From Pseudomonadota bacterium (GTDB lineage Bacteria; Pseudomonadota; Alphaproteobacteria; UBA2136; JAPKEQ01): 44,131 nucleotides of DNA. The notes beneath the pieces were generated by a model, which was not told where the DNA came from, ran no database searches, and saw only the letters and a list, made by a program, of their open reading frames with translations. Each line of letters starts with the position of its first letter. Within the stretch, counting starts at the first letter, position 1. Positions 15,146-43,759 of the stretch are shown here, piece by piece. The stretch is taken from the NCBI GenBank assembly GCA_036141575.1, contig JAYZXF010000005.1:1-44131 (forward strand), read 5' to 3'. The position numbers and the translations under genes are program-made.

Positions 15146-15748
15146 CTATTTAGCATCTTTAAACTGCTTTTCAGATGTCTTAAATAAGAAATCCAAACTT
15201 TTTACAGCATCAAAAAACTTCGATGGTAGCGGGTATTTTGTTACACGTTTTGTACGTGTATCAATCACGACCATAGTTGGATATCTGCTCACTCTAAACT
15301 TTTTAGCGAGCCTATTTCCAGAATCAAGAACCGGCTGAAAACGCGCATCAGCTTGCTCTTCTTCTGTAAGGTGAGAGAGCTCCATCTTTCTATACTTTTG
15401 CGTAAAATCTTTAATTTTATCACTATAGCCAGCTTTTTTCAGCTTATCTTCTTCATCAAACCAGCGCTCTAAAAGCCTCTCTTCTTCAGGGCTCTCATCA
15501 TCTTCTCCAGCCATAACCATCTGCTTAAACTTCTCAAGATCTTTTTCTGGAATATCTCTAAGAGCAACACTTGTGTCTACATCAGGGTGCCAAGTGAGGT
15601 ACTGAATTACCTCCATCGGGCCGCCTGCTATCAAATGTGTTGGGTCCATAAACAAGACAACTTTATGATTCTTTTCTTCTTCAGCCTGCAATGCAGAAAA
15701 AGAAGAAACAGCTAGAACGAAGAGAGCTACAAAAATATTTTTCATCAT
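15146..15748 (-). CDS. Secreted thioredoxin-fold-like protein of unknown role
   Basis: A protein of 200 residues with a signal peptide (MMKNIFVALFVLAVSSFSALQA) and thus probably periplasmic. The first mature strand (HKVVLFMDP) and the late segment LAKKFRVSRYPTMVVID with a cis-Pro-like YPT recall a thioredoxin fold, and the layout resembles TrbC-type pilus assembly proteins. There is no CxxC motif and no cysteine in the mature part, so it cannot be a dithiol oxidoreductase. A highly charged helical insertion (about residues 60-130) sits in the middle. The start was set at the signal peptide. Role unknown; a chaperone or assembly function is one possibility. Confidence 0.6.
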   Translation of the reverse strand: MMKNIFVALFVLAVSSFSALQAEEEKNHKVVLFMDPTHLIAGGPMEVIQYLTWHPDVDTSVALRDIPEKDLEKFKQMVMAGEDDESPEEERLLERWFDEEDKLKKAGYSDKIKDFTQKYRKMELSHLTEEEQADARFQPVLDSGNRLAKKFRVSRYPTMVVIDTRTKRVTKYPLPSKFFDAVKSLDFLFKTSEKQFKDAK

Positions 15749-15864
15749 GTCTTTTATTATGGTGTCCAAATCGACACATTTCAAGACGTAAATATGCCAC
15801 GTCACATACCATAAAAGCCCTTTTTATTTGGCGAGTTACCAAAGTACCGTAAACTAAAAATGAA

Positions 15865-17832
15865 ATGAGTGACACGATAGAACTATGCGCACTCCGAGAT
15901 GGGTTTTGGGACCTCATTAGTACTTACGACGCATCTCAGGAAAAGATTGCTATTCAAGAAGCTGCAAATATCCAGACTGGATACGCGGCTGTTGCCGTGC
16001 TTTCTGTAGAACAAATGCATGTAAGTTATTACATTTCACTCAAAGGCATGCCCAAACCGTCATATTATGACATTAGAAAAAGCGTCAAAGCTGAACGGCC
16101 AACCATGCGCGAAAAATCTAATGCAAAGAAAACGATTGGCGCTCCTAAAAAACAAACTACGGCACATGCTGGTAATACGGCTCCTAGCCCTGCAGCTCAG
16201 ATGAAAACTGAAACCCAAGGTGCAGGGTCTAGAAAAGAAGCTCCACAATCGTTTTGGGATATGATTATTGAATCTATTTACTACCTCATTACTGGTAAAA
16301 AGCTTTCAGAGCAAGATGAACAAAAGCCTAAAGATACGACACACCCTCAAGCTGCACCTTTTCCAGATGAAGCAACAAAAGACGATGACGATACAGCACA
16401 GGAAAGAAACATCCAAAACCTGCTTGAAGCACACTTAGAAGAAGAGTTCAACACACCTAAAGAGACTGACACAACAGAGCCTCCTGAGATTTTAGAAATG
16501 GAAGATGAGATTCCAACTGCGGCTCAAATCTCAAAGAAAAACCCATTCAAACCTCAGGGTGCAAAGACAGAAGATGGACCAAACCCACTTACAAAAAGCG
16601 CTCAAAAAGAGCAGCAAGTTCTACATGGACAGAGCGATGAGAAAAAAGCGATTAATCTAAAAAACACCAATGCCGCTCTCCCTAAAATTGGGGGTGGGCA
16701 TATCCCTAATCCAACAGCACAAAACGCACAGCAGAACGGCAATGGCAACAACAATCAATTTTGGAACAATATTGAAGAAGGCGAAGAAGACTTTGAGCAA
16801 GCACGTCACCAAATACAAAAAAGCCTCTTTGAAGCCATCGAGCGAGCCAAGCAGCTGGCATGGCTTCCAGAACAAGGCGTTATGCGCGGCACATTACAAA
16901 TTGCAGCTATTCTTCTTATCTGTGGTATTGGTCGTAAACTCTGCTCTCATGTAGGCCTTCCAGGCGGTATTGGAAACCAAGCCATTGGTCATACACTTGA
17001 GCAACTTGGCCTCTCAGAAAAGCAAGCATTTATTTGCGCTCTCCATGTGGATCGCATTCTTACCGAACCTAAAAACAACCTGATGTACCTCATTGGACGC
17101 GCCTATGGTGCGAACATTCTGAATGACTCGGAACAGCGTATTGACCTTCTCAGTATTTTTAATGCCTGGGAAAATGACGACCTTGAAAGATTCTTTGAGG
17201 TTGACGAAGAAAAGAACACGACCAAGCTTTCCAAGCTGCCATACCTTAAGCCAATTTCAATCATGCTTACAGATATCGTGAGCTTCACGGCTCAAAGCAA
17301 TGAAAAAGGCGAAAAGTGGGTAAAAGATGTCGTTCACGCCCATAACCGCATGACTAAAACTGTTGCAGTACATCAAAAAGGTGAGTACATACAAGGTACA
17401 GGTGATGGTGCCCTTCTCATCTTTACGACACCGGAATCGGCTATGCACGCTGCCATGGAACTCCAATTCATGCATCAAAATTTCTGTAGACGTGTTTCAA
17501 GCCGCAAATTTGATATCCGCATTGCCATTAGTCACGGTATTCCAATTCAAACGCAATCAGGCCTTCATGGCCCTGCCATTGAGGAGCTCAATATCATTCA
17601 TCGTAGCATGGATAGCGACGGCATCGCCGTAACTAAAGGCATTGCAAGTGTTGCAGAACAGCACGGCTTCCAGTTCAACCTTCAAGACGAAGAAGCTAGC
17701 GTACCTATTTATGAATTTACAACATACACCGGAGCCCATACAGTAGAGAATACAGGGGATATCATTCCAGAAATAGAACCAACAGAGGCAGTATCTGTTA
17801 CAGACGCACTGCAACAAGAAGGACAAGCATAG
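15865..17832 (+). CDS. Class III nucleotide cyclase with divergent substrate-selecting residues
   Basis: A 655-residue protein. Residues 1-80 form a domain shared with the next gene (ELCALRDGFWDLISTY). Residues 80-310 are a Pro/Gln/Lys/Asp-rich linker with one amphipathic stretch (SFWDMIIESIYYLITGKK). A helical region follows (310-450). The C-terminal part (463-625) is a class III cyclase domain. Metal-binding Asp470 (LTDIVSFT) and Asp514 (GTGDG) and the transition-state pair Asn576/Arg580 are present. The purine-selecting Lys is Gln510 and the usual Asp is Gly566, so nucleotide preference cannot be assumed. No Shine-Dalgarno; a TAAACT hexamer lies just before the ATG. It is followed after 3 bases by a second cyclase gene. 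Confidence 0.85.
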   Translation: MSDTIELCALRDGFWDLISTYDASQEKIAIQEAANIQTGYAAVAVLSVEQMHVSYYISLKGMPKPSYYDIRKSVKAERPTMREKSNAKKTIGAPKKQTTAHAGNTAPSPAAQMKTETQGAGSRKEAPQSFWDMIIESIYYLITGKKLSEQDEQKPKDTTHPQAAPFPDEATKDDDDTAQERNIQNLLEAHLEEEFNTPKETDTTEPPEILEMEDEIPTAAQISKKNPFKPQGAKTEDGPNPLTKSAQKEQQVLHGQSDEKKAINLKNTNAALPKIGGGHIPNPTAQNAQQNGNGNNNQFWNNIEEGEEDFEQARHQIQKSLFEAIERAKQLAWLPEQGVMRGTLQIAAILLICGIGRKLCSHVGLPGGIGNQAIGHTLEQLGLSEKQAFICALHVDRILTEPKNNLMYLIGRAYGANILNDSEQRIDLLSIFNAWENDDLERFFEVDEEKNTTKLSKLPYLKPISIMLTDIVSFTAQSNEKGEKWVKDVVHAHNRMTKTVAVHQKGEYIQGTGDGALLIFTTPESAMHAAMELQFMHQNFCRRVSSRKFDIRIAISHGIPIQTQSGLHGPAIEELNIIHRSMDSDGIAVTKGIASVAEQHGFQFNLQDEEASVPIYEFTTYTGAHTVENTGDIIPEIEPTEAVSVTDALQQEGQA

Positions 17833-17835
17833 TAT

Positions 17836-19353
17836 ATGAGCATTGATCTATGTGTTTTAAGACAAGGCGTATGGGAGATTCACTCTACCTATTCTCCGTC
17901 TGAGTCTGAAAAAGCTGTCCAAGATGCGATTCGTTATAAGCAAGAAAAAGCCTACGCCGGCGTTGCTGTTATTGATGACCGCTCAAAATCTGTTCTCTAT
18001 GGGTTCACCTCTTCTGGGCAACCAGAGTTTAATGCTGTGCAAAGAAGCCTGAAAGAAGGCCATAAAAACATGCGTACACAAAGCATGCAGCAAACAATGC
18101 GCAACAACAAATCTACTGCAAAAAAGACGGCTCCATCAGCTCCAGACCCTAAACTTGGGCCAATAAAGACCAATAGTAAATTGAACTCAGTCATGAGTAA
18201 CAGCATGCTTGCTCTTATTATTGCAGTTGCTATTTTTATGGCGCTCCTCAATATTTTTGACGATGTGACATCTGCCTTTGTCGGTGCCCTTTTCACAGCT
18301 GTTTCTACACTGATTGTCTTTAAGTTCGCACAGTTTGACCCAAGCGCTTCTATTGAAACCGCTGCAAAAATTATTGCAAAAAAAATGGATACAGGTCCAG
18401 GGCCTATGGATCCTGAAGAAGAAGATCATATTCCATCTATTCAAGCTCACCTCCAAAGCATTGTTGACCATGCTGTTGAAGTCATTTGGAATGAAGAAGA
18501 TGAGTCTGCACCTGATGAGTCTGCACTTGGTATTATCCTGCTTTGTTCAGGTGTCATTGAATATATTCACCAATCACAAAATCATAAAAGACTCGTTCTC
18601 ATTGAGATGATCAGCGACATTATCCAAAACTCAAAACTAGAAGTTCCTAAAGTGAGCATTATAGCTTGCTATAAAAACATTCTAGAGTACCTTGCTTACC
18701 CACGCTACTCAAACATGTATGACATGGGTTACCAGCTATCTAAGCAGTACCACACACAACACGATGAAGATGAGCTTAAGCTACACCTTCAACAAGCTTT
18801 TGAGTTCTGGAAATCTCAACAAGAAGAGACATCAGACCAAGATGGCGCGGCGGCCATTTACTTTACAGATATTGTGGACTTCACATCCAAACACCAAGCA
18901 CGTGGTGATGCATGGATGATGCGCATTCTTAACGCACATAATGAAGCCGTACGCGAAGGCTTGTCTGTGACTGGCGGACGTGAAATTAAGCATACAGGTG
19001 ATGGCATCATGGCCTCATTTGCAACAGTTAAAGATGCCCTTGATGCTGCCATTATTGCGCAAAAGAAGATTAGAGAGTTTAACGCAAACCATGAGGCTGA
19101 AAGCTTTGAAGTACGCATGGGTGTAAGCTACGGTGAACCTGTTCACATTGGCGGAGACCTCTTTGGTACACCTGTTAACAAGGCTGCGCGTGTTCTTTCC
19201 AATACTGAAGGCGGTGAAATCACGCTCTCTGCTGAAGCGTGGCAACAAGCTCAACCTTACGGCTACACAGCCACTGAACAACCAGGTGTGTCCCTCAAAG
19301 GATTCGATGGTGTTCACAGCCTATTTAGAGTCGACTGGAAAGACGGCGAATAA
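17836..19353 (+). CDS. Membrane-bound class III adenylate cyclase
   Basis: A 505-residue protein. Residues 1-78 repeat the N-terminal domain of the preceding gene (DLCVLRQGVWEIHSTY). Two membrane segments follow (about 122-141 and 146-165), then a cytoplasmic helical region (200-330) and a C-terminal cyclase domain (337-500). The catalytic set is canonical: Asp345 (FTDIVDFT), Asp389 (HTGDG), Asn448 and Arg452 (VNKAAR), with Lys385 and Asp441 at the adenine-selecting positions. It should therefore make cAMP from ATP. It starts 3 bases after the stop of the first cyclase gene, with GAAGGA upstream inside that gene, so the two are translationally linked and may form a heterodimer. Confidence 0.88.
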   Translation: MSIDLCVLRQGVWEIHSTYSPSESEKAVQDAIRYKQEKAYAGVAVIDDRSKSVLYGFTSSGQPEFNAVQRSLKEGHKNMRTQSMQQTMRNNKSTAKKTAPSAPDPKLGPIKTNSKLNSVMSNSMLALIIAVAIFMALLNIFDDVTSAFVGALFTAVSTLIVFKFAQFDPSASIETAAKIIAKKMDTGPGPMDPEEEDHIPSIQAHLQSIVDHAVEVIWNEEDESAPDESALGIILLCSGVIEYIHQSQNHKRLVLIEMISDIIQNSKLEVPKVSIIACYKNILEYLAYPRYSNMYDMGYQLSKQYHTQHDEDELKLHLQQAFEFWKSQQEETSDQDGAAAIYFTDIVDFTSKHQARGDAWMMRILNAHNEAVREGLSVTGGREIKHTGDGIMASFATVKDALDAAIIAQKKIREFNANHEAESFEVRMGVSYGEPVHIGGDLFGTPVNKAARVLSNTEGGEITLSAEAWQQAQPYGYTATEQPGVSLKGFDGVHSLFRVDWKDGE

Positions 19354-32991: not shown

Positions 32992-33016
32992 AGCGCCTAC
33001 GGGCGCTTTTTCTTTT
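32992..33016 (+). terminator. Terminator overlapping the end of djlA
   Basis: AGCGCC pairs with GGGCGCT (33001-33007) followed by TTTTTCTTTT. The left part of the stem includes the djlA stop codon (32997-32999, minus strand), so the two convergent genes share this hairpin. Confidence 0.85.
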
Positions 33017-33818
33017 GCAGGACCTCATAGGCCGCATTAATTTCAGCAACTTTCTTTTCAGCTTTTTCTACTGCTTTATCAGACTTACCTTCAGCCCTTA
33101 CTCTATCAGGGTGATGTTTTTGGATAAGGGACCTGTAAGCTTTTTTAATATCTGCAGCCGTTGCCGTGCTTTTTACACCCAGAACTGCATAAGGGCTTTT
33201 ACTTCCATAAGCCCTGGTCACATGTGGGCTGTCATCATAGGAATGATCTTGACCTTGTTTTGAACTCGAAGACGAACCTGATGCCTTTTTCCGAGATGAA
33301 GCTTGAGATATACCATCATCAATAGAAACTTTCCCCCAGTTCACAGGTGGCATGCCAAACTCATGAAAGAGCTGTTCCACTTTTTGACGGCCAGCAGCTC
33401 CCTGCAACACACCAACCCTTGCAGCACCATTTGCAACAATACTCAACATATTCTCAACCCCTTCGCAGCAGGATTGAATTTCCTCAATAAGATAATTGTA
33501 ATTTTTACGGTTCTTTTTCGCACGTTTCAAAATACGATTGGCAATCGGGTTATCTTTAGCGGCAATATATGCATCATTACGAATACAAATGATATCCTGT
33601 TTCGTAATTTTTCCTTTAGCTACAGCCACTGAAGCTAAGAGCTCTAAATACAAACAAGAAAACTCCTGCATCCAATAAGTCTCTTTACTGCGCTGAACAA
33701 CCCGCTTCAAAACAAGCTCATCCAGCAAAATCCCGACAATCAGACCAATAATCGCGCCTTCAGGAAACCAGTTCACCATCAAACCAGCCAGAACACCAAT
33801 AACCTTCCCAATTACCAC
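32997..33818 (-). CDS. djlA: DjlA-like membrane-anchored J-domain co-chaperone
   Basis: A 273-residue protein with the DjlA plan: an N-terminal Gly-rich membrane segment (GKVIGVLAGLMVNW... IIGLIVGILL, residues 3-32), a central TerB-like helical region (45-170), a Ser/Lys-rich linker and a C-terminal J domain (210-273) with the HPD motif in KHHPDR. DjlA recruits DnaK to the inner membrane and is linked to envelope stress. The last codons (KKKRP stop) form part of the terminator of the convergent gene. No strong Shine-Dalgarno upstream of the ATG (AAGTAAGAAAG). Confidence 0.85.
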   Translation of the reverse strand: MVIGKVIGVLAGLMVNWFPEGAIIGLIVGILLDELVLKRVVQRSKETYWMQEFSCLYLELLASVAVAKGKITKQDIICIRNDAYIAAKDNPIANRILKRAKKNRKNYNYLIEEIQSCCEGVENMLSIVANGAARVGVLQGAAGRQKVEQLFHEFGMPPVNWGKVSIDDGISQASSRKKASGSSSSSKQGQDHSYDDSPHVTRAYGSKSPYAVLGVKSTATAADIKKAYRSLIQKHHPDRVRAEGKSDKAVEKAEKKVAEINAAYEVLQKKKRP

Positions 33819-33939
33819 AGTAGAAAAACTTTCTTACTTAACTTTAGTCAATTTCCATCCCCATGAAGCTTGACGACTTCTTAAACACCCGTTTATTATG
33901 CACCAAGGTTCAGACATTTTAAGAAAAAAGGTTAATTTT

Positions 33940-34470
33940 ATGTCTCCAGCAACACGTCTTTTTACGCATTTTGTTCTTATTGCTGACTTTTTTGCAGTGA
34001 TTTACTTTGGTGGCCACTTCATTATTACAGGTACAGTGCTTCCTCATAATGCACACGCAGAAGAAAACATGGTTGCAAAAGCAGAAGTTCACGGCAAACC
34101 TACAGAAGGTACTGTTGTTGCTGAAGCTGCACCATTTGACATTCATACATTTGAAGCCGATGCAGCTAAAGGTGCTAAGGTTTCTGGTAAATGTAAAGCT
34201 TGCCACACATTTAATGATGGCGGCAAAAACGGTATAGGTCCGAACCTTTGGGGCATCTTCAACGCACCAATCATGGCGAAAGATGGCTTTGCTTACAGTG
34301 CAGCCTTCCAAGGTAAGAAAGGTGAAATCAACTGGGATAAAGACGCTCTTAACGAATACCTTAAGAATCCTAAGAAATACATTAAAGGCACAAAAATGGC
34401 CTTCCCAGGCATCAGAAAAGATGCTGACCGCGCCCACCTTATTGCATGGCTTGAGACACTGTCTAACTAG
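33940..34470 (+). CDS. Membrane-anchored class I cytochrome c
   Basis: A 176-residue cytochrome. An uncleaved-looking N-terminal hydrophobic anchor (residues 8-30) is followed by an Ala/Glu-rich periplasmic linker and a cytochrome c fold. Heme binding: CKACH at residues 85-89, with the axial Met in GTKMAFPG (Met153). The insertion GIGPNLWGIF matches the c2/CycM type that shuttles electrons from the bc1 complex to cytochrome oxidase. The start at 33940 has AAAGG about 9 bases upstream; the longer frame from 33898 lacks this. A very strong terminator follows. Heme attachment could depend on the CcsA-like protein at 9995. Confidence 0.92.
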   Translation: MSPATRLFTHFVLIADFFAVIYFGGHFIITGTVLPHNAHAEENMVAKAEVHGKPTEGTVVAEAAPFDIHTFEADAAKGAKVSGKCKACHTFNDGGKNGIGPNLWGIFNAPIMAKDGFAYSAAFQGKKGEINWDKDALNEYLKNPKKYIKGTKMAFPGIRKDADRAHLIAWLETLSN

Positions 34471-34657: not shown

Positions 34658-35209
34658 ATGTTTAGTTTTAAAAAGTTTAAAAATCAGAAAGGTGCCATGT
34701 TCGGCCTTGATGCCCGCGTAGCCCTCGCTATTTTTGGTGGTCTTTCTGTAATTGCTGGTGCTGCCGTTATTAGCAGTATCACAGAAACAAACGTAACCGC
34801 CCTTACAACTGAGTTTGATAACATCTCAAAAGGTTACATCAACCAAGTCTTTGATACAGGTGTAGATACAGTTACCTTTAATGACCTTCTGGCTGATTCT
34901 GGTGCTGTATCATGGAACGGCCCCTACCTCACAATAGCCAACGACAACCAAGTAAGATTTGGTACATATTCACTTGGAGAAGGCCCTGACGCTGCCGCTG
35001 CCAACCCAACTGGTGCTGCATGTGTTGGCATTTGCTATGTATGGTTAGAACTAACTCAAGTACCAACACCAATTGCTGAGCGTATCGATTCACAAATTGA
35101 CGGTGCAGTTGATGCCGCAAACGGTAACTTCAGATACGTTGATACAGCAGGTGTATCTGTAACTCGATATAAACTCTCTCGTTGCCAAGGCCCTGGCCCT
35201 TGCGTATAA
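34658..35209 (+). CDS. Type IV pilin-like protein with atypical N-terminus (major pilin candidate)
   Basis: A 183-residue protein. The leader MFSFKKFKNQKG (basic, ending in Gly12) is followed by AMFGLDARVALAIFGGLSV, a long hydrophobic helix, as in prepilins. The canonical Glu+5 is missing; Asp18 is residue 6 after Gly12, or residue 5 if cleavage occurs after Ala13, which would give a Met+1 as in type IVb pilins. The C-terminal domain has two Cys pairs (C122/C126 and C176/C182) that could form the usual disulphide loop. GGAGA lies 9 bases before the chosen ATG. Its own terminator separates it from the ATPase operon, so it is probably produced in larger amounts, which suits a major pilin. Confidence 0.75.
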   Translation: MFSFKKFKNQKGAMFGLDARVALAIFGGLSVIAGAAVISSITETNVTALTTEFDNISKGYINQVFDTGVDTVTFNDLLADSGAVSWNGPYLTIANDNQVRFGTYSLGEGPDAAAANPTGAACVGICYVWLELTQVPTPIAERIDSQIDGAVDAANGNFRYVDTAGVSVTRYKLSRCQGPGPCV

Positions 35210-35253
35210 AATTAAGCCTACCTCTTAAATTTGTGCTCATTTAGCAACGGCAG

Positions 35254-35290
35254 AAATGGCCTCGTCAGACATACGAGGCCATTTTCTTTA
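35254..35290 (+). terminator. Terminator between the pilin gene and the assembly operon
   Basis: An 11-bp perfect stem, AAATGGCCTCG with CGAGGCCATTT, around a 9-base loop and followed by TCTTTA after TTTT. Confidence 0.93.
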
Positions 35291-35307
35291 GAAAACACAC
35301 CTATTAT

Positions 35308-35337
35308 TTGAGTTTTGGCATTATTTTTTGCCATAAT
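35308..35337 (+). promoter_or_regulatory. Promoter of the pilus assembly operon
   Basis: TTGAGT (35308-35313) and CATAAT (35332-35337) with an 18-base spacer; transcription would start near 35344, 25 bases before the ATPase start. The spacer contains the dyad TGGCA/TGCCA, which may bind a regulator. Confidence 0.55.
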
Positions 35338-35368
35338 AGGACTTAAGAAAAAGAAAGCGATGTAACGG

Positions 35369-37066
35369 ATGGACATTGTCGATCTCATGATCAGTGATCA
35401 AGTGATCAACATAGCAGACCTACAAGGTCTGCCTGTTACTGTGCAAAAAGACCCGGAGCAGCTTATTGATGCTCTTGGTAAAGCCGGTAAGCTTTCTGAA
35501 ATGCAGCAATCGCGCTACAAAGCCATTGCTTATGATTACCCTGTGCGTACAGATGAAGAAATGGCACGGACCACACCACACCAAGTGGATGGCATTAACG
35601 CCGACTTTATGAACTTCTATACAGCCTGCCCCATTGAACTTGGCCGTGGTGCCATCACATGGGCAGCAGCTGATTTACCAAACAAACGTCTACTCAGTGA
35701 GATTGTTCTACGTCACCGTAAAAACAGGCACCAATTTGTATGGGCCTCAGCAAAATCTATTGAATCTGCCATTGAGCGTATGTCTAAGCGTGAAGGTCAC
35801 TCTCTCAAATTCCTTGTGGAGACAGCCTACGCACAAATTAACGCTGGTAACGATGATGCCATTGTTCACCTTACAGATGAAATTATTCGTACCGCTTATA
35901 AAAACAACGCTTCGGATTTACACGTTGAAATCCTAAACCGTAAACCAACGGTTATGGCACGTATTGATGGCGAGCTTGAAGAACTTGTACCGCTTCCTAT
36001 TGAAGTTTATGAGCGTGTGGTAGGTCGTCTTCGTCACATGGCTGGTGTACGTGCAGAAAACTATAAGAAACCGCTCTACGGACGTATGACATTTGAACTG
36101 TCTGCCCGTCAGCATATTGATATTCGTTATACAACACAGCCCATTACGCTAGAAGGCACAGCAAAGATTGCCATGCGTTTCCTAAAACCATTTGAAGGCA
36201 GCATTGATAACTTTGGCTGGCGTAAAGAGAGTATCGGTAAGCTTGATGTTTTGATGCGTTTTGAGGAAGGATGTATTATTTTCGCCGGGCCTACAGGTTC
36301 TGGTAAGTCAACTGGTGCACGCATGATCATTCGTCGTGGTCAGCGTCCTGGTCAAAATGTCATCTCATACGAGAAACAGATTGAGGAACGTATGGATAAC
36401 GTCATCCAAACGGAAGAAGATCTCAGCGCAGGCCTAAATCTTGAGTCATTCATGTATGCCGCTCTTGGTCTTGACCCTGATGTTCTGTTTATTGGTGAGG
36501 TACGTAGCCCTGAAGATACCCGCCGCTGTATTGATGCCGGTAACCTTGGTCACCTTGTTATTACAACGATGCACGCCAACGATACCTTCATGACCCTTGA
36601 CCGCCTTGTACAGCGCGGCGTTCCGGTTGAGCAAATTTTCTCTAACGTGCGTGGTATCATTGCACAACGTCTTGTAAAGAGACTTTGCAACAAATGCAAA
36701 GTGCCACTTGAGCTTGATGAAGACTTTGCAGAACAATTGAACAACCTTCGCCCAATTGATTTCAAACCGGGAGACGTGATTTACAAAGCGAATGCAAACG
36801 GTTGTGAAGCTTGCCGACACAGAGGCTACATAGGCCGTACAGCAATTGAAGAAATTTTAGAACTTTGGCGTAAAGATATTACGCGAAACGTGTGGACAAA
36901 CACAGCACTCCGCCCTGATTGGATTGATGTTGTCCGCAGACAAGCTATGGAAATTGGAATGCCTGATATGTTGACGCAGGGTATTCTACATGTAAAAACT
37001 GGGGTAACATCCCTTGAAGAACTAGAAAGATTTTTCAGTGCAGACTTGGAAACTATTCAGTCGTGA
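35369..37066 (+). CDS. GspE/PilB-family assembly ATPase with altered motifs
   Basis: A 565-residue secretion ATPase. The N-terminal 155 residues are a divergent GspE-N/MshEN-like region. Core motifs: Walker A GPTGSGKST (307-315), Walker B LDPDVLFIGEVRS (368-380), His box TTMHANDT (399-406), and a four-Cys zinc site (Cys440/443 and 479/482), typical of extension ATPases rather than PilT. Two deviations stand out: the Asp box usually reads EDP but here is EKQ (335-337), and the Walker B region reads GEVRSPEDT where GEIRDxET is usual. It powers pilin polymerisation from the cytoplasm. Its end overlaps the next gene by 29 bases. The Shine-Dalgarno is weak (AACGG). Confidence 0.9.
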   Translation: MDIVDLMISDQVINIADLQGLPVTVQKDPEQLIDALGKAGKLSEMQQSRYKAIAYDYPVRTDEEMARTTPHQVDGINADFMNFYTACPIELGRGAITWAAADLPNKRLLSEIVLRHRKNRHQFVWASAKSIESAIERMSKREGHSLKFLVETAYAQINAGNDDAIVHLTDEIIRTAYKNNASDLHVEILNRKPTVMARIDGELEELVPLPIEVYERVVGRLRHMAGVRAENYKKPLYGRMTFELSARQHIDIRYTTQPITLEGTAKIAMRFLKPFEGSIDNFGWRKESIGKLDVLMRFEEGCIIFAGPTGSGKSTGARMIIRRGQRPGQNVISYEKQIEERMDNVIQTEEDLSAGLNLESFMYAALGLDPDVLFIGEVRSPEDTRRCIDAGNLGHLVITTMHANDTFMTLDRLVQRGVPVEQIFSNVRGIIAQRLVKRLCNKCKVPLELDEDFAEQLNNLRPIDFKPGDVIYKANANGCEACRHRGYIGRTAIEEILELWRKDITRNVWTNTALRPDWIDVVRRQAMEIGMPDMLTQGILHVKTGVTSLEELERFFSADLETIQS

Positions 37067-38132
37067 TGCTTTAGGCCCCCGGGTAACAGAAATGCGCGCA
37101 CGAGATCGTGAACGCATGTTCTTCCTTTTGTATCAAATGCTTAAGTGTGGTCAAACCACTGAATCTGCCGTACGTGCTGTTGCTAAATCTTTCCGCAGTG
37201 AAGGTAAAGAAGATATTTCTGCCGCTCTACACGCCATTGCCCAAAAAGTTGCTCAAGGTAAACCTATGAGTAAGTCCATGGAAATGGAACATGTGATGTT
37301 TGATGATGTTCACCGCGCCGCCGTTATGGCTGGTGAAGCCTCAAACTACATGACAGAATCATTCCACATTCTACAAGTTCTAGAAGATAAAAAAATCGCG
37401 GCATCTCGTGCAGGTATGGCTGAGCTTCTCACACCTCTCCTCATGCTATCGTTCAGTTTATTTTCTATTTTCAACACAGGTTTAAATACACTTCCTGTCC
37501 TAACTCAGCTGAAGATTGCCCAAGGTAAGCAACTTGGTACAGCACCACGCATGGTTATGGACATTACTGGATGGTGTGCAGACCACTGGCACATTCTTAT
37601 GGCCATCGGAATTACGTTTGGCGTATGCGCATATGCTGCAATCAAATCAACGCAAGGGCGTTTTTGGTTAGATTACTACACGCTTCGCGTTCCTTTGATG
37701 GGTAAGTTTATTCGTTATAAAACATATGCAAACATGCTGCTTTACTTCCCACACCTTGTGGAAAGTGGTGTAAAGCCAAAGCAGATGATCCCTATTATGG
37801 AGGCCATGTCGACAAACATTGTACTGCGCCGTAAAATCGATGCCTTTAACCAGGTCATTACCACAGGTGGTAAAATGTCAGATGCCATGGAAAAAGCAGG
37901 GTTCCCAGGCCTTATTGTTACACCAATCCGCGTATCAGAAAACTATGCAGGTAATGATTCAGGTACCAACGATGTCATGATTGAAGGTATGAACCACGCA
38001 TACTCCATTCTAGAACGAGATCTATCTGATACACACAAGCGATTTATTAGTACATTCTCTGTTATTTTGTGGCTAATGGGTGGTAGCGTCATGCTACTTG
38101 AGATGATGTCAATTGTACTTGCACAGTCGTAG
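37038..38132 (+). CDS. GspF/PilC-family inner-membrane platform protein
   Basis: A 364-residue protein with two T2SF-type cytoplasmic domains and three membrane segments (LTPLLMLSFSLFSIFNTGL, ILMAIGITFGVCAYAAI and FISTFSVILWLMGGSVMLL). FFLLYQMLKCGQTTESAV and YFPHLVESGVKPKQMI are the two matching domain starts. It couples the ATPase to pilin assembly. The GTG at 37038 lies inside the 3' end of the ATPase gene; ATG at 37092 or 37116 are alternatives and I cannot decide firmly. A clear AGGAGAG after its stop serves the next gene. Confidence 0.88.
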   Translation: MQTWKLFSRDALGPRVTEMRARDRERMFFLLYQMLKCGQTTESAVRAVAKSFRSEGKEDISAALHAIAQKVAQGKPMSKSMEMEHVMFDDVHRAAVMAGEASNYMTESFHILQVLEDKKIAASRAGMAELLTPLLMLSFSLFSIFNTGLNTLPVLTQLKIAQGKQLGTAPRMVMDITGWCADHWHILMAIGITFGVCAYAAIKSTQGRFWLDYYTLRVPLMGKFIRYKTYANMLLYFPHLVESGVKPKQMIPIMEAMSTNIVLRRKIDAFNQVITTGGKMSDAMEKAGFPGLIVTPIRVSENYAGNDSGTNDVMIEGMNHAYSILERDLSDTHKRFISTFSVILWLMGGSVMLLEMMSIVLAQS

Positions 38133-38144
38133 GAGAGTATTGAC

Positions 38145-39296
38145 ATGCCTATTGTAAAAAACAACCTTGGACAACAGTTTAAAAACATCTGTTTTACAGG
38201 CCTAAACCGCGTAGAATATCTCCCTGATGGTTCAGATCAACCTATTTTTGGTGATAGCTGGCAAGATGTATCAGATGAACAAGCACGCCGTAACATGTGC
38301 CTTTCTTTCTTTGCACCACGTGACCTTTCAGGTGAACCTGTTGCCCCAGAAGAAATTCTGATTGACGATTATTCAGATGAAGAAGTCCCTGATACATTAA
38401 TGACAGAGAGCATTAAACATATTCCTCTCATGGATTATTGTCGCATGCCCCCTGCAGACTCGAACACGGTGAACTTTATCGTTGTAGCTGATGTTATTTT
38501 CCACTGGGATATTAAAGATAACTACTTACAACCAACATCTCAGTTGACGTGGGTTCAAGATATTAAGGCAATTCTTAAATCATACCCAAGAAGCTATACG
38601 AAAAATATTTACACAAACTGGCAAAAAGATAAATTAGAAGAGCTGCGTGTAAACGTGCTCCCTCTTCGTGAATCACCTGTCTTTAGTGAAGTTTGGCTGA
38701 ATATGCCGTCTTTCCAAGAGAAATACGGTAATATCATGCTATCTATTGGTATTCTCGTTTCTATGATGGTTTTTGCTATCACCTACATGCAAGATACCAA
38801 AATTCAAAAACTTCAAGCAGACAGAAACCGTGTCACACAGTCCATTCCATCAGGACAAAACTTTGCTGTTCTTTCTAATATGATCCGAACGCAACAACAG
38901 AACATGTCTTATAGAGAGTACTTCCCATTCATTTTGAAGGATGTATCATATGCTATCCAATATTCAGGCATGAAAATTGACTCTTTCGAACTCGAGTCAC
39001 CATCTCCTCTAGATCCGCCAACAAATCTGTTATTAACAATTAATGCAGATAGCGATGCTTATGATGGCTGGCTTGAGGAAGAGCCTGTTGCCAAATCGTT
39101 TCTTGCCCTGAGTAATACAGTTAAGGCTGTAAGACGCCAGCCAGGAAATAAAAAGATGAAACTTGAGGGGTTAATTCCTTTAAGAGACGCTATTAAAGAG
39201 CTTCACCCTTACTTACAAGAAGCCCGTAAAACCAGAGCTATTGGTAACCGCACCCTTGGTGAAACAGCAGATGCAGTAGAGGAGCCTGAATCATGA
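38145..39296 (+). CDS. Bitopic pilus assembly protein, PilN/GspL-like layout
   Basis: A 383-residue protein with a large N-terminal cytoplasmic region (about 1-195), one membrane segment (197-214, IMLSIGILVSMMVFAITY), a coiled stretch and a periplasmic domain. This is the topology of GspL, BfpC or a PilM-PilN-like fusion, and the position after the platform protein fits. There is no readable actin-like ATPase motif in the cytoplasmic part, so homology is not shown. AGGAGAG lies 7 bases before the ATG. It overlaps the next gene by four bases (ATGA). The function given is inferred from topology and place. Confidence 0.6.
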   Translation: MPIVKNNLGQQFKNICFTGLNRVEYLPDGSDQPIFGDSWQDVSDEQARRNMCLSFFAPRDLSGEPVAPEEILIDDYSDEEVPDTLMTESIKHIPLMDYCRMPPADSNTVNFIVVADVIFHWDIKDNYLQPTSQLTWVQDIKAILKSYPRSYTKNIYTNWQKDKLEELRVNVLPLRESPVFSEVWLNMPSFQEKYGNIMLSIGILVSMMVFAITYMQDTKIQKLQADRNRVTQSIPSGQNFAVLSNMIRTQQQNMSYREYFPFILKDVSYAIQYSGMKIDSFELESPSPLDPPTNLLLTINADSDAYDGWLEEEPVAKSFLALSNTVKAVRRQPGNKKMKLEGLIPLRDAIKELHPYLQEARKTRAIGNRTLGETADAVEEPES

Positions 39297-39790
39297 TTCA
39301 ATTCACTATTGGGCTTGCCCTTTTCGCGTTTGCAGCCATCCTTGGTACGTTTAAAGTTTTTGAAAATATCGATAAAATTCAGGTCACTGAAAATAGCTTG
39401 CGTAGTTCTATGAAAAATAGAGATAAAATTTTACGTATTCAAACGAATATTCAAAAATCAATTAGAGAGACTTTAGAAGCTGGCCAAGACCAAAAAAACA
39501 ACATTGAAAGGCTCTTCAACCTTGCAGAAAAGGATTTAGACTTTAACTTTGTAGGTCAGCCAACGCAAAACCCAGCAGCACCTGGTATCTACTACCACAC
39601 ATACCGCATTACAGGCACAGAAACATATGCAGCCGTGACAGAACTTCTCACACTTATCGCATCAACACCTGGATTTTCTGTGTATAAAACTTGCTTTAAC
39701 TGTGCGCGCACAAACCGAGAACTTAAACCTGGCCACCATACGGTTCAAATAGAAGGGTACCTCTATGTCCACAACCCACGCCAGATTTAA
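39293..39790 (+). CDS. Bitopic pilus assembly protein, PilO/GspM-like layout
   Basis: A 165-residue protein with an N-terminal membrane segment (residues 3-20), a coiled-coil-like region (25-80) and a periplasmic alpha/beta domain. The end domain pattern (YHTYRITGTETYAAVTELLTLIAS, then HTVQIEGYLYV) is what the ferredoxin-like fold of PilO/GspM looks like. One Cys pair (CFNC) could form a disulphide. It overlaps both neighbours (4 and 26 bases), so it is tightly coupled. Homology is suggested by layout rather than by a diagnostic motif. Confidence 0.6.
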   Translation: MIQFTIGLALFAFAAILGTFKVFENIDKIQVTENSLRSSMKNRDKILRIQTNIQKSIRETLEAGQDQKNNIERLFNLAEKDLDFNFVGQPTQNPAAPGIYYHTYRITGTETYAAVTELLTLIASTPGFSVYKTCFNCARTNRELKPGHHTVQIEGYLYVHNPRQI

Positions 39791-40910
39791 AATAGCACTT
39801 GCGCTGTACAGCCTTTCGCTCACAAGCACAGGCTATGCCCAAAACCTCAAATGGCCCAATACATTTACAGGTCAGCCTGACTTTGAATTCACACGAGATG
39901 ATATTGTGAAAGAAATTCAAGAGAAAAGACCTGAGTCGTTCTCTGTACTCACAGGAAACCTTGACCGATCTTTGAATACACAGGGCGTGAACCCATTTGA
40001 TCCAAAAACAGCCCAAAACCTGATTGATATCTATAGCCGATACAACGAAAACGAATCTGTTGCCATTATAAGAGAGAAAAATCCGGTACCTCAGGCTTAT
40101 GTTGGTACAAAGCAACGTATTTTTCTCCGTACAGGAGAAATCGCAACTGCAAATATCGCACTTAAAGATGGTGAAGTATCTGCTATGCTTGTAACAGGCA
40201 GAGTTGTCCCTGTTGAGCTTGCTCCTAATAACACAATTGTAGAATACGTAGCGACAGGCCAAATTTCTAAAGAAGAGATCATTAATAAAAAGTTTCAAGA
40301 CCTCTTTGCAGGTGAAGGTCTCTTTTCTGATACACAAATTAACCTCAAGGATATTGATAATCGCCTAGCTGGATTACAAACATATCAAGCTAAGGGCCAA
40401 CTGCCTGACTTCTATACGGATGCTAAAGGTCGCCTTTCCCCTGCGGAATTCAAAAGATTCCTTGAAAGGCTCCTGCGTCAAACACTGCAAAAAGAGCAAG
40501 ATCAGCTCAACACGCAAGATTTTACGCAAGATATCAAAAAAATCAAAATTGATAGCATTGTGACATCTCCATTTAAGTACGCCGTGCTTGATGGTGAAAA
40601 GTATAGTGAAAAAGAAAGGTTTTTCCTTTCAGTTCAAAGACCTCAGGGACAAAACACAAACTTTAGATCCATTGTTCAGCAATACTTACCCCCTCAAGAT
40701 TCAATGGATAAAGGCATGTACCAATCCTTTATTAACGAGGCAAATAACGTTATTGAGCAATATGAAGCAGAACTTGGCATAAAATCAGGGGCTGCAACTC
40801 GTATGGCTACCCATAAGATAGGGGTAACAGTAAAAGAAATTGGCCATAGAAAAGTGATCTTAACCATTGGAGATAAAGATTACCCGCTTAAGATCAATCT
40901 GGCCCTGTAA
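39765..40910 (+). CDS. Secreted pilus-locus protein of unknown family, possibly PilP-like
   Basis: A 381-residue protein with a signal peptide (MSTTHARFKIALALYSLS, cleavage near GYA-QN) and no further membrane helix, so probably periplasmic. The last 35 residues (KIGVTVKEIGHRKVILTIGDKDYPLKINLAL) resemble the short beta domain of PilP/GspC proteins that meets the secretin. A middle beta-rich part (QRIFLRTGEIATANIALKDGEV) is of unknown type. GAAGGG precedes the ATG, which lies within the end of the previous gene. No lipobox. If PilP-like, it would link the inner-membrane complex with an outer-membrane channel encoded elsewhere. Confidence 0.55.
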   Translation: MSTTHARFKIALALYSLSLTSTGYAQNLKWPNTFTGQPDFEFTRDDIVKEIQEKRPESFSVLTGNLDRSLNTQGVNPFDPKTAQNLIDIYSRYNENESVAIIREKNPVPQAYVGTKQRIFLRTGEIATANIALKDGEVSAMLVTGRVVPVELAPNNTIVEYVATGQISKEEIINKKFQDLFAGEGLFSDTQINLKDIDNRLAGLQTYQAKGQLPDFYTDAKGRLSPAEFKRFLERLLRQTLQKEQDQLNTQDFTQDIKKIKIDSIVTSPFKYAVLDGEKYSEKERFFLSVQRPQGQNTNFRSIVQQYLPPQDSMDKGMYQSFINEANNVIEQYEAELGIKSGAATRMATHKIGVTVKEIGHRKVILTIGDKDYPLKINLAL

Positions 40911-40913
40911 GAG

Positions 40914-41672
40914 ATGATGGAAGCAAGAGAGCACCATACGAGCAAAATAAAATGTCAAAAAGGCGGTTTTTCACCGTTTATGTTTGGCGTGCTTGCTGCT
41001 CTTACTGTTTTTAGTACCATGCTCGCGCAATGGGCAAGGGAGGACCTAAAAACCCTTGAAGCTGAAAAGCTCAAAGCCCAACAAAGGCACTCTGAAGACT
41101 TTAAAGAAGCTTTAGAAATCGCTATTTTGTCGGAGAATAGCAATACTGCGAGCAATAATTACAGCCAAACTTATGACTTAAGCCGCGCCCAAGGCTTTCT
41201 TTCTGCATCCACAAACACAACACGCAGTGGTGCAGCCATTCAAATTAGAGAAGTAGATAGTAGCCAAGTTCAAGATATTCAAAACAAACGTATTGCTATC
41301 ACCTCTTCAGATGATGCTTTCTTACGTTCAGACGTAGGCGGACTTGCCAACGAGTCAGCTATTGCAAACTATGATGGTGGCTTAGATAAACCGCTCGCAA
41401 CAGTTGATACAGAAGCCTTAAGAAACCAGCAGGTTAAGCACTCAAGGCAACTTCTGGAAAAAGAAGCCAGCATGCTTTACACTTTCTATACAGAAAACAG
41501 CAGGTTCCCTGCCAATCAAACGGAATATGATAACGGTGTCAACAACCTCACAGGTTACAAAGACACTTGGGGAAATGATTTTGTTTACACCTATGCCAGT
41601 GATACGGAAGCTACGCTGAGCTTTACAACGCCATGGGGTAAAAACTTTAATGTCCGCGTGGACATGAACTAG
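40914..41672 (+). CDS. Pilin-like protein with pseudopilin C-terminal motif
   Basis: A 252-residue protein. A basic leader ends in KGG, followed by FSPFMFGVLAALTVFSTML, a hydrophobic helix, and a charged coiled stretch (REDLKTLEAEKLKAQQ). G|F is a standard prepilin cleavage point, but residue 5 is Met, not Glu. The C-terminus contains KDTWGNDFVYTYAS, the (D)xWGNxxxY pattern of GspG-type pseudopilins. It may be a minor pilin or pseudopilin lacking Glu+5, as some priming subunits do. It starts 3 bases after the preceding stop and shares its operon. Confidence 0.6.
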   Translation: MMEAREHHTSKIKCQKGGFSPFMFGVLAALTVFSTMLAQWAREDLKTLEAEKLKAQQRHSEDFKEALEIAILSENSNTASNNYSQTYDLSRAQGFLSASTNTTRSGAAIQIREVDSSQVQDIQNKRIAITSSDDAFLRSDVGGLANESAIANYDGGLDKPLATVDTEALRNQQVKHSRQLLEKEASMLYTFYTENSRFPANQTEYDNGVNNLTGYKDTWGNDFVYTYASDTEATLSFTTPWGKNFNVRVDMN

Positions 41673-41690
41673 GGAAATAAGGGGAAAAAA

Positions 41691-42599
41691 ATGATACGCG
41701 CTATTGCAAAACGCCTAAAAAGCCAAACAGGTGCTGTTTTTGGAATGGATGCCCGTGTGGCACTGATCATTGCCAGTATTATGGCTGCAACAGGTGGTGT
41801 AACCGTCCTTTCACGCGTAGAGCGTAGTAAAAATGATGGCGCTGAGCGCGCTGTAGATTTGCTAGTGAATGCAAACATGAAATACTACATTACAACAGGT
41901 ATCACCGTACTTTCTCCTGATATTGCTACTCTATTCACATCAGGCATGATTGAAGAATCTCAATTCCAACAAGACCCTTGGGGAAATAACTGGAACTATG
42001 TAACAGGCTCTACAAATATAGAAATTGAAGATGTGCCCGTTACAGTTTGGTATGGAACAATCCATACCAATGGTAAAAATAGCACAGATGACTCTGTAAC
42101 AATTGCTTCGTATGCTGACTGGCAAGCTTGGAACGCTGCAGGGGATGATATTGGTATTAAGTTTTCAACAATCACAATTGAACGCGACCGTGTCGCCCTT
42201 TACAGAAAACAAGGACAAGAAATTTCTGATCGCCTTGCTGCTGTAGAAGCAGCTTGGTACCTAGATGCCGATGGCGCTTGTCCAGGGCCAGCATGGTGTA
42301 CAAGTGGTGGTAAGTCTTATACCAACTTTAACTATTACCCTGTTTCAAGCCTAGATACGAATGGTAATATTCAGTACTTTGACTCTGTATGTACTGATAC
42401 CGACATTGCAGGGACAACAAGTGCTTGTACAGATACAACATACACAAGTGGTGATAACGCCTCTATGCAAGCCCTACTCAACCTACTAAATCTACCAACT
42501 AGCTATTCCACAGACCCTTGGAACCGTACACTACGCTACAACTCAAACCTGACGGACCGTGAAGATCCGCCATTTAGTGCACAGGTTTGGTACCAGTAA
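41691..42599 (+). CDS. Second atypical pilin-like protein, related to the first at its N-terminus
   Basis: A 302-residue protein whose leader and helix (MIRAIAKRLKSQTG, then AVFGMDARVALIIASI) repeat the unusual motif of the pilin at 34658: G-A-x-F-G-x-D-A-R-V-A-L. Glu+5 is absent and an Asp takes a neighbouring position. The C-terminal part contains DPWGNNWNY and DPWNRTLRY, GspG-like calcium-loop patterns, and two Cys pairs. AAGGGG is a very good ribosome-binding site. It is larger than the first pilin and is inside the assembly operon, so it may be a minor or tip pilin. Confidence 0.7.
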   Translation: MIRAIAKRLKSQTGAVFGMDARVALIIASIMAATGGVTVLSRVERSKNDGAERAVDLLVNANMKYYITTGITVLSPDIATLFTSGMIEESQFQQDPWGNNWNYVTGSTNIEIEDVPVTVWYGTIHTNGKNSTDDSVTIASYADWQAWNAAGDDIGIKFSTITIERDRVALYRKQGQEISDRLAAVEAAWYLDADGACPGPAWCTSGGKSYTNFNYYPVSSLDTNGNIQYFDSVCTDTDIAGTTSACTDTTYTSGDNASMQALLNLLNLPTSYSTDPWNRTLRYNSNLTDREDPPFSAQVWYQ

Positions 42600-42602
42600 G
42601 CC

Positions 42603-43214
42603 GTGTTTGCCTTTGAGCGTAAATTCTTAACAGAAGAGGATATGGCTGAAGGACTTATTCCTGAACGCTTTCATATACCCCTGACCCTTGCCATACTTCT
42701 CGGCTTGCTTAGTATTGCTTACCCTAGCCTTAATGGTATGACAGAATATGCCTTCTGGGGCTTCACAAGCCTGATTCTTGCAAGGCTCGTGGCACTTGAC
42801 CTCACAAACCACACTCTGCCGAATATTTATGTAGCTCCACTGGCCCTTCTCTCCTTTGCAGGTATTGCCATTGGGGTTGTTGCACTGTCATGGCAGCAGG
42901 CCTTACTCGGAGGCTTTATTGGCTTTGGCGCTATTCTCTTTTTCAGTTTCTTGATTGAGTTCATGCTCAAATCAGCATTCCTTGGCGGTGGAGATATCAA
43001 ACTTATTGGCGCCTCAGGTCTTTGGCTTGGCGCAACCTTCTTACCATTTTACATGATGGCTGCTTGCTTTATCAGCATTGCCCTTTCATTTATTCCGAAT
43101 AAAAATGGCCACATTGCATTTGGTCCCGGCCTTTGCTTATCACTATGGTTATTTTTACACCAAAAAACTTGGCTCATGGCCTTGATAAACAAGGTATTTG
43201 CCTTTATATCTTAA
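42603..43214 (+). CDS. Prepilin peptidase (A24 family)
   Basis: A 203-residue membrane protease with about six helices. The two catalytic aspartates are in ALDLTNHTLPN and GGGDIKLIGASGLWLG (the GxGD motif). There is no N-terminal methyltransferase or cysteine cluster, so it is of the short CpaA/TadV-like type. It would process the three pilin-like proteins of this locus. The GTG at 42603 directly follows the previous stop and was chosen; an ATG at 42642 with AGAAGAGG upstream is a real alternative giving a protein 13 residues shorter. Confidence 0.87.
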   Translation: MFAFERKFLTEEDMAEGLIPERFHIPLTLAILLGLLSIAYPSLNGMTEYAFWGFTSLILARLVALDLTNHTLPNIYVAPLALLSFAGIAIGVVALSWQQALLGGFIGFGAILFFSFLIEFMLKSAFLGGGDIKLIGASGLWLGATFLPFYMMAACFISIALSFIPNKNGHIAFGPGLCLSLWLFLHQKTWLMALINKVFAFIS

Positions 43215-43216
43215 GC

Positions 43217-43759
43217 ATGACTGAGAAATGCGCCCATCCAGAATGCGAACTTGAAGGAACTTTCCCTGCACCAAGGGACCCTCAAAACATTTCTGCACGC
43301 CAGTATTTCTGCGAAAAACACATCAAAGAATTCAACAAACAATGGAATGGCCTGAAAGGCTTTAGCAGTGACGATCTTTACACCATGCAGTCAGGCGGCA
43401 CATGGGGACGCCCCACATGGAAAATGGGTGTAAACACGGAGTCATACAAAAAAGCAACTTTTGCGGCTGATCGTACGTACAAAAACCCCTACACCATGTT
43501 TGATTACATGGAGGGCAGTGCTGAAACAGCAAAAATCTTTACACCTAAAATGCCTAAGCGCATTACAGAGGCTTGCGAAACACTTGGAATTGAACCTCCA
43601 CTTTCACCAACCCTGATTAAGAAAAGGTTTACAGCCCTTGCGAAAAAGTTCCACCCGGACATCTACACGGGAGACGACGCTGCAGAACGCATGGGTATTA
43701 TTAATGACGCCTACACAACACTTAAAGATTACCTCAAGCGCCAAGACGCTTCATCTTAA
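43217..43759 (+). CDS. J-domain protein with N-terminal Cys/His cluster
   Basis: A 180-residue cytoplasmic protein. The N-terminal part has CAHPEC and, 24 residues later, FCEKHIKEFNKQWN, a probable zinc-binding CxxxxC...CxxH cluster followed by a helix. The middle TWGRPTWKMG and the C-terminal J domain (about 125-175, with HPD in KKFHPDIYTGD) complete a layout I associate with a conserved alphaproteobacterial DnaJ-like protein. It probably recruits DnaK; its client is unknown. The ATG lies two bases after the peptidase stop, so it is transcribed with the pilus operon. It converges with the next gene and overlaps it by 4 bases (TTAA). Confidence 0.8.
   Translation: MTEKCAHPECELEGTFPAPRDPQNISARQYFCEKHIKEFNKQWNGLKGFSSDDLYTMQSGGTWGRPTWKMGVNTESYKKATFAADRTYKNPYTMFDYMEGSAETAKIFTPKMPKRITEACETLGIEPPLSPTLIKKRFTALAKKFHPDIYTGDDAAERMGIINDAYTTLKDYLKRQDASS

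Follow-up and report, generated by a model that had tools for sequence, protein, structure and literature searches.

A conserved type IV filament-type locus in two orders of aquatic alphaproteobacteria and a candidate secretin pair encoded elsewhere

Gene content and conservation of the locus

The stretch of DNA analysed here (hereafter the window) comprises 44,131 nt of contig JAYZXF010000005.1, from an alphaproteobacterial genome of 1.85 Mb in 19 contigs, and the locus under study, at 34658-43214, encodes pilins together with what appear to be the motor, platform, envelope and pilin-processing components of a type IV filament machine. All open reading frames that a preliminary description of the window had claimed for this locus were found at their positions, and the tight packing it had mentioned holds from the ATPase gene onward, where neighboring genes overlap by 29, 4 or 26 bases or are separated by 3-18 bases. 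Pfam assignments are certain for the ATPase (T2SSE, 7e-67), the platform protein (T2SSF, 3e-14) and the peptidase (Peptidase_A24, 4e-12); no Pfam or NCBIfam family reached its cut-off for N, O, P or the pilins. The features are as follows:

34658..35209, + strand: pilA1, pilin with leader MFSFKKFKNQKG followed at the cleavage point by AMFGLDARVAL; probable major pilin, sharing its motif with pilA3 (profile match 97.9%)
35253..35290, + strand: intrinsic terminator in the gap that separates pilA1 from the ATPase gene, GAAATGGCCTCGT...ACGAGGCCATTTTCTTT, folding z -4.0
35308..35337, + strand: possible promoter for the operon of machinery genes, TTGAGT-18-CATAAT, 9/12 consensus bases; shuffled sequences contain such matches at least as often
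35369..37066, + strand: extension ATPase (E) of the GspE/PilB superfamily with an MshEN-like N-terminal domain (PF00437 7e-67, PF05157 3.5e-5)
37038..38132, + strand: inner-membrane platform protein (F), PF00482; profile match 96.5% to the second-locus platform (see below) and 96.6% to Escherichia coli HofC
38145..39296, + strand: N, GspL-like (PilM-PilN-like), with cytosolic domain, membrane helix and periplasmic domain
39293..39790, + strand: O, in the PilO/GspM position, with an N-terminal membrane helix visible in the sequence; profile match 97.9% to its second-locus counterpart
39765..40910, + strand: P, periplasmic, in the PilP/GspC position, with a signal peptide, a conserved WPxTFxGQPDF motif and a C-terminal beta domain with a helical insert
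40914..41672, + strand: pilA2, pilin-like, with [AG]FSPFMFG after the leader Gly and no Glu5; probable minor or tip pilin, kept in all complete loci
41691..42599, + strand: pilA3, pilin with AVFGMDARVAL after the leader Gly and two DPW[GN] motifs
42603..43214, + strand: prepilin peptidase, protease domain only (PF01478 without PF06750)
43211..43759, + strand: zinc-motif and J-domain protein (PF00226), a downstream neighbor conserved across several families and also in the second order

The order E-F-N-O-P-pilA2-pilA3 is kept in all members of the order containing the window genome (the first order) that have enough contig, and because it recurs across these members it is not due to chance; in families f1 and f3 pilA1 adjoins the operon. 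ATPase identity is 96% in a congener and 73-79% in other families of this order, and in the same genome set the best matches in other genomes of the class are approximately 30% identical. A second order, represented by G196, G290, G075 and G367, whose membership in a single order was derived from a pilin-motif survey of genomes, carries the same cluster: the arrangement pilA1-E-F-N-O-P-pilA2-pilA3-protease is exact in the first three (with two pilA3-type genes in G075), and the G367 contig stops after P and one pilin. A Rickettsiales origin of the second order, prompted by repeat-like leader sequences, was considered and found unsupported; the order comprises six genomes only in the set. No window-type ATPase was detected in 397 other genomes of a phylum-wide sample at E <= 1e-62. 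The named carriers in the species genome collection (such as UBA2136, UBA6156, ANT-120 and RI_95) are all uncultured metagenome-assembled genomes (MAGs), as are all genomes compared here. The locus is real and strongly conserved, and its hosts are two little-known orders of aquatic alphaproteobacteria.

ATPase, pilins, envelope proteins and a second pilus locus

Phylogenetic analysis of the ATPase, which the preliminary description had proposed as a check, placed the window-type sequences in a clade of their own (support 100/98 in a 41-row tree) with a stem of 1.9 changes per column and short internal branches, outside the PilB plus GspE clade (95/94); ATPases of a second pilus locus in the same genomes formed another separate clade (100/100). 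In the best tree the window, second-locus and R64 PilQ ATPases came together (68/55), a grouping not seen in the 41-row tree. A sister relation of window and second-locus ATPases was present in the best tree, with support of 72/55 and long branches, and is not claimed; the tree does not resolve the deep branching order and long branches meet in it, and we claim only the separateness of the clade. With at most 245 bits the window ATPase is far under every NCBIfam cut-off (630-850): it scores 245 bits against the PilB model (cut-off 676), 230 against GspE (cut-off 630) and 18.5 against TadA, whereas ordinary alphaproteobacterial homologues mostly reach 480-656 bits on the GspE/PilB models. Together with the distinctive, co-distributed pilin N-terminus described below, these results support the earlier suggestion that this pilus or pseudopilus machine is a lineage of its own.

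Elsewhere in the genome, PF00437 matches over the cut-off comprise GspE, the second pilus ATPase and two VirB11-like proteins, and no PilT-type retraction ATPase is among them. Both VirB11-like ATPases (L019:4816-5946 and L020:5239-6456, each on the minus strand) are under the VirB11 cut-off and adjoin housekeeping genes, with no secretion genes seen nearby; similar matches occur in related genomes. Three platform genes are present in the genome, one per known locus.

Pilin subunits normally carry a Glu at position 5 of the mature protein, which is commonly viewed as needed for docking, and class III leaders are cleaved after Gly. The motif of the window pilins, A[M/L]FG[L/M]DAR[I/V]AL directly after the leader Gly, has no Glu at +5. 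Cleavage after Gly is predicted to yield a mature pilA3 with Asp at +6 and Arg at +8 and no Glu at +5, and pilA2 likewise lacks Glu5; in pilA3, Q-x-G-A-x-F-G-x-D-A-R-x-A-L is invariant over 14 sequences of the first order. A DNA pattern for the motif matched 11 of 385 alphaproteobacterial genomes (reversed control, 0), and the nine with in-frame pilins are the same nine that have a window-type ATPase at E <= 1e-100. The matches in the remaining two, G097 and G137, were rejected because they are not pilins; neither genome has a window-type ATPase. In the second order the pattern was found in all six genomes examined, and two genomes of its genus g271 (G367 and G758) contain 63 and 68 motif copies in 1.0-1.3 Mb, dispersed and in tandem groups (for example at L153, L161, L172, L179 and L240). 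Among eleven intact g271 copies, pairwise identity is 81% over the first 35 mature residues and 28% over the rest. A tandem group of three further pilins of this type lies on contig C1 of the window genome (L195:4392-6292, minus strand), and a similar triplet was seen in G290 (C2:177851-179086). PilA1 is the probable major pilin, or shaft subunit. It gave a profile match of 86% to the first of the second-locus pilins; for pilA3 the values were 99.4% to a second-locus pilin and 84% to E. coli GspG, and its best Pfam match is T2SSG (0.0039).

The preliminary description had attributed a PilN/PilO/PilP-like topology to the three envelope proteins. O and P do occupy those positions, but the gene product at 38145 resembles GspL rather than an ordinary PilN: its cytosolic portion comprises approximately 190 residues, it has a single membrane helix and a periplasmic portion, and an AF2 structure model (predicted local distance difference test, pLDDT, 81) has as its best PDB folds the cytosolic domains of GspL (4pht, 5tkw, 1w97), followed by PilO (E 3e-3 to 2e-2). 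This fold match agrees with the topology, and the modelled N resembles GspL or a PilM-PilN fusion. The sequence of N matches its second-locus counterpart at E 4e-4 (profile match 36%), and P matches the C-terminal domain of its counterpart at 58%; the structure model of P was of low confidence, with no significant fold match, and too poor to use. A PDB sequence profile search with N, O and pilA3 returned nothing, the sequence profiles of PilO2, GspL, GspM and GspC did not match N, O or P, and the profile probability for PilO2 and PilP homologues at the locus was below 1%.

The second pilus locus (G000:C11, L017) is collinear with that of the window (p1-E-F-N-O-P-p2-p3), and each window gene has the same-position gene of the second locus as its best profile match (pilA2 at 52%), the protease being the exception. 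The weak matches of N, P and pilA2 count mainly through this collinearity, and both loci probably descend from one ancestral locus; their ATPases are 32% identical. In both orders the second locus keeps its own secretin and TcpQ-like gene, and two of its pilins have the canonical Glu or Asp at +5. We also observed an 883-aa coiled-coil lipoprotein ending in a TcpQ-like domain at the second locus (L017:11668-14316); a TcpQ-like gene directly precedes the secretin in other genomes. In several families the second-locus gene that corresponds to the peptidase (L017:11187-11591) has PF06750 without PF01478, the reverse of the window-type peptidase. On its own, neither of the two loci would encode a complete PilD, and no peptidase was seen in the part of the T2SS cluster that was read. 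In the loci read, there is a strong lead that the prepilin peptidase may be split, with its protease in the window locus and its methylase/zinc domain in the second locus.

Secretin assignment, proposed working and alternatives

That the locus has no secretin is true within the window but not of the genome: a search for secretins and PilT, as the preliminary description had recommended, returned three secretins and no PilT-type ATPase. There are likewise three GspE/PilB-type ATPases, and one of each belongs to a T2SS on contig C3 and another of each to the second pilus locus. The third (orphan) secretin is a lipoprotein on contig C6, preceded by a 210-aa TcpQ-like protein (PF10671, E 0.014, below the cut-off; second-locus counterpart, E 0.0011). 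It was found in all 17 window-ATPase carriers of the first order (48-87% identity; a fragment only in G017), where the TcpQ-like gene adjoins it in every genome with a long enough contig. In the second order it was detected in 4/4 ATPase carriers (E 3e-94 or better; non-carriers reach at most 67 bits), with a similar open frame beside it, bringing the count to 21 of the 21 carriers tested in two orders; these carriers are related, so their co-occurrences are not independent evidence. Neither the window ATPase nor the orphan secretin was found in G005, the single non-carrier in the first order, which keeps the second-locus secretin, an absence that is weak evidence in a genome 78% complete. In G196, G290 and G075 the orphan secretin lies on the same contig as the ATPase, at 21-24 kb, and the orphan pair is the profile counterpart of the second-locus TcpQ-like domain (E 3e-24) and secretin (E 2e-23), at 99.6% each. 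Because of this linkage and this counterpart relation we assign the orphan pair to the window machine, in agreement with the earlier expectation that the secretin must be elsewhere; the other option it had offered, a fibre departing from the usual passage across the outer membrane, is unsupported. The orphan secretin scores 37 bits against TIGR02520 (PilN family; cut-off 288), and for the secretins of both pilus loci MshL is the best model (116-119 bits, cut-off 250). Curated models accept neither the ATPase nor the secretin, and the machine belongs to no defined family tested.

Our favored explanation, with a probability of roughly 0.7, is a type IV filament machine with a type IVb-like parts list, whose TcpQ-like and secretin pair has been displaced elsewhere in the genome; most likely it works like a type IVb pilus, though it is not classed as one. 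Of this machine, the window locus would supply the pilins, the protease for their leaders and the components in the inner membrane and periplasm. The protease may cut pilin leaders after Gly, exposing an N-terminus that the methylase domain from the second locus may then modify. With the cytosolic domain of N as its anchor, the ATPase would turn platform F, which would add pilins from the membrane. O and P would bridge platform and secretin, and the fibre would exit the cell through the secretin. PilA1 is the likely shaft, and pilA2, pilA3 and the pilin triplet elsewhere in the genome could be minor or tip subunits. As no PilT-type ATPase was found, retraction, if any, would need the same motor or one of the two orphan VirB11-like ATPases.

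Several points weigh against this explanation. The machine is known here from its genes, from which filament formation and function are deduced. In the window genome the secretin is unlinked, so its assignment rests on co-occurrence and on linkage elsewhere, and with a second pilus locus in the same genomes the secretin is paired with the machine by elimination only, since the second locus already possesses one. No confident fold was obtained for P, the fold match of N reaches only E 3e-3, and the sequence match of N to its counterpart is weak (36%). In addition, a pseudopilus is conceivable in view of the GspG-like pilA3 and the GspL-like N.

The alternative that survives best, although we regard it as unlikely, is a protein-exporting pseudopilus of T2SS type, with a short pilA3/pilA1 filament, a GspL-like N, a GspC-like P and a secretin elsewhere. 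It would explain the resemblance of pilA3 to GspG (84%, with T2SSG as top Pfam match) and the GspL-like fold of N, and most f2 genomes of the first order show no T2SS-type secretin, so that a secretion role would be vacant there. However, a complete T2SS is encoded separately in the window genome, the window ATPase lies outside the GspE clade and far below the GspE cut-off (230 bits vs 630), and the TcpQ-like partner and the expansion of pilins to 63-68 copies fit surface fibres better. A DNA-uptake (competence) pilus is improbable: type IV pili often serve DNA uptake, but nothing else is in its favor here and no feature of the locus points to DNA, with no search aimed at competence genes made. 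Quite improbable too is that the orphan pair serves the second locus or neither, the window machine sharing the second locus's secretin. Prepilin processing seems common to both loci, so sharing may occur in the cell; against this, in both orders a secretin and a TcpQ-like gene are already part of the second locus, G005 lacks the window ATPase and the orphan pair yet keeps the second secretin, and the orphan secretin is linked at 21-24 kb in three genomes. A decaying remnant, which the small MAG genomes might bring to mind, is hardly tenable, as all genes are intact and the ATPase (73-79% identical across families), spacing and gene order are kept.

A further-reaching version of the type IV filament machine, which we offer tentatively and at somewhat less than even odds, is a separate filament class confined to two alphaproteobacterial orders, whose subunits may polymerise without the Glu5 contact, through Asp6/Arg8 instead (invariant in pilA3 across the first order), with processing divided between two loci and with 60-70 variants of the shaft pilin having arisen by multiplication in one genus, perhaps for surface variation.

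Neighboring features and comparison with known systems

The terminator that the preliminary description had placed after pilA1 was recovered as a 13-bp stem with a T tract (z = -4.0, no shuffle as stable), and its position directly 3' of pilA1 could allow separate, higher pilA1 expression. The promoter fared worse, since 12 promoter-like matches were counted against a shuffled mean of 18.5, though one of them does sit in the right gap. Conserved neighbors in several families are a J-domain protein with a cytochrome c on the upstream side (window 32997-34470) and the zinc/J-domain protein on the downstream side, the latter also in the second order. For the accessory role proposed for a J-domain protein the analysis yielded only this conserved neighborhood, and the Trx-fold-like protein given a similar role, found by eye at 15146-15805, lies approximately 19 kb off with no tie to the locus. 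At 15865-19353 of the window, two adjoining proteins with related N-termini have a nucleotide-cyclase-type appearance by eye.

Surveys of type IV filaments leave many systems unclassified (884 'generic'; PMC6668835). The present one is definable and searchable, with the ATPase clade and the FG[LM]DAR pilin as diagnostic features, a parts list complete over three loci and a narrow host range. If its pilins do assemble without Glu5, the need for this residue in docking becomes directly testable; a split peptidase/methylase would separate two activities usually found in one enzyme, and 63-68 pilin copies in very small genomes call for a reason.

The components are those of the type IV filament superfamily, namely a GspE/PilB-type ATPase, a T2SSF platform, an A24 peptidase, pilins with class III leaders and the secretin of diderms, here unlinked. 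The TadA ATPase and TadB/TadC platform pair that mark the Tad pilus were not found (18.5 bits for TadA; three platform genes, one per locus). The MSHA pilus is similar in its best secretin model, MshL, and its MshEN-like domain but differs in the secretin score (116 bits vs a cut-off of 250) and in that the peptidase lies within the window locus. The type IVa pilus (PilB/PilC, PilMNOPQ, PilT) shares the MshEN-like N-domain of the ATPase and the N-O-P order, whereas in the window system the PilM and PilN parts are apparently fused, no PilT-type ATPase was found in the genome and the ATPase falls outside the PilB/GspE clade. The T2SS resembles it in the GspL-like N, the GspG-like pilA3 and the platform, and differs in the ATPase clade, the TcpQ-like partner and the presence of a separate T2SS in the genome. 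The IncI type IVb pilus (PilL-PilV, R64 type) is alike in its TcpQ-like protein, lipoprotein secretin (profile match 91% to the orphan secretin), ATPase, platform, leader peptidase and pilins. In contrast to the R64 type, the window ATPase has no supported grouping with PilQ, there is no PilO2 or PilP similarity, E-F stand ahead of N-O-P, the secretin pair is unlinked, the pilins lack Glu5, and the locus contains neither a lytic transglycosylase nor a shufflon. Compared with the window locus, the second pilus locus alone keeps its secretin and TcpQ-like gene in place, and it carries a gene for the A24_N domain only.

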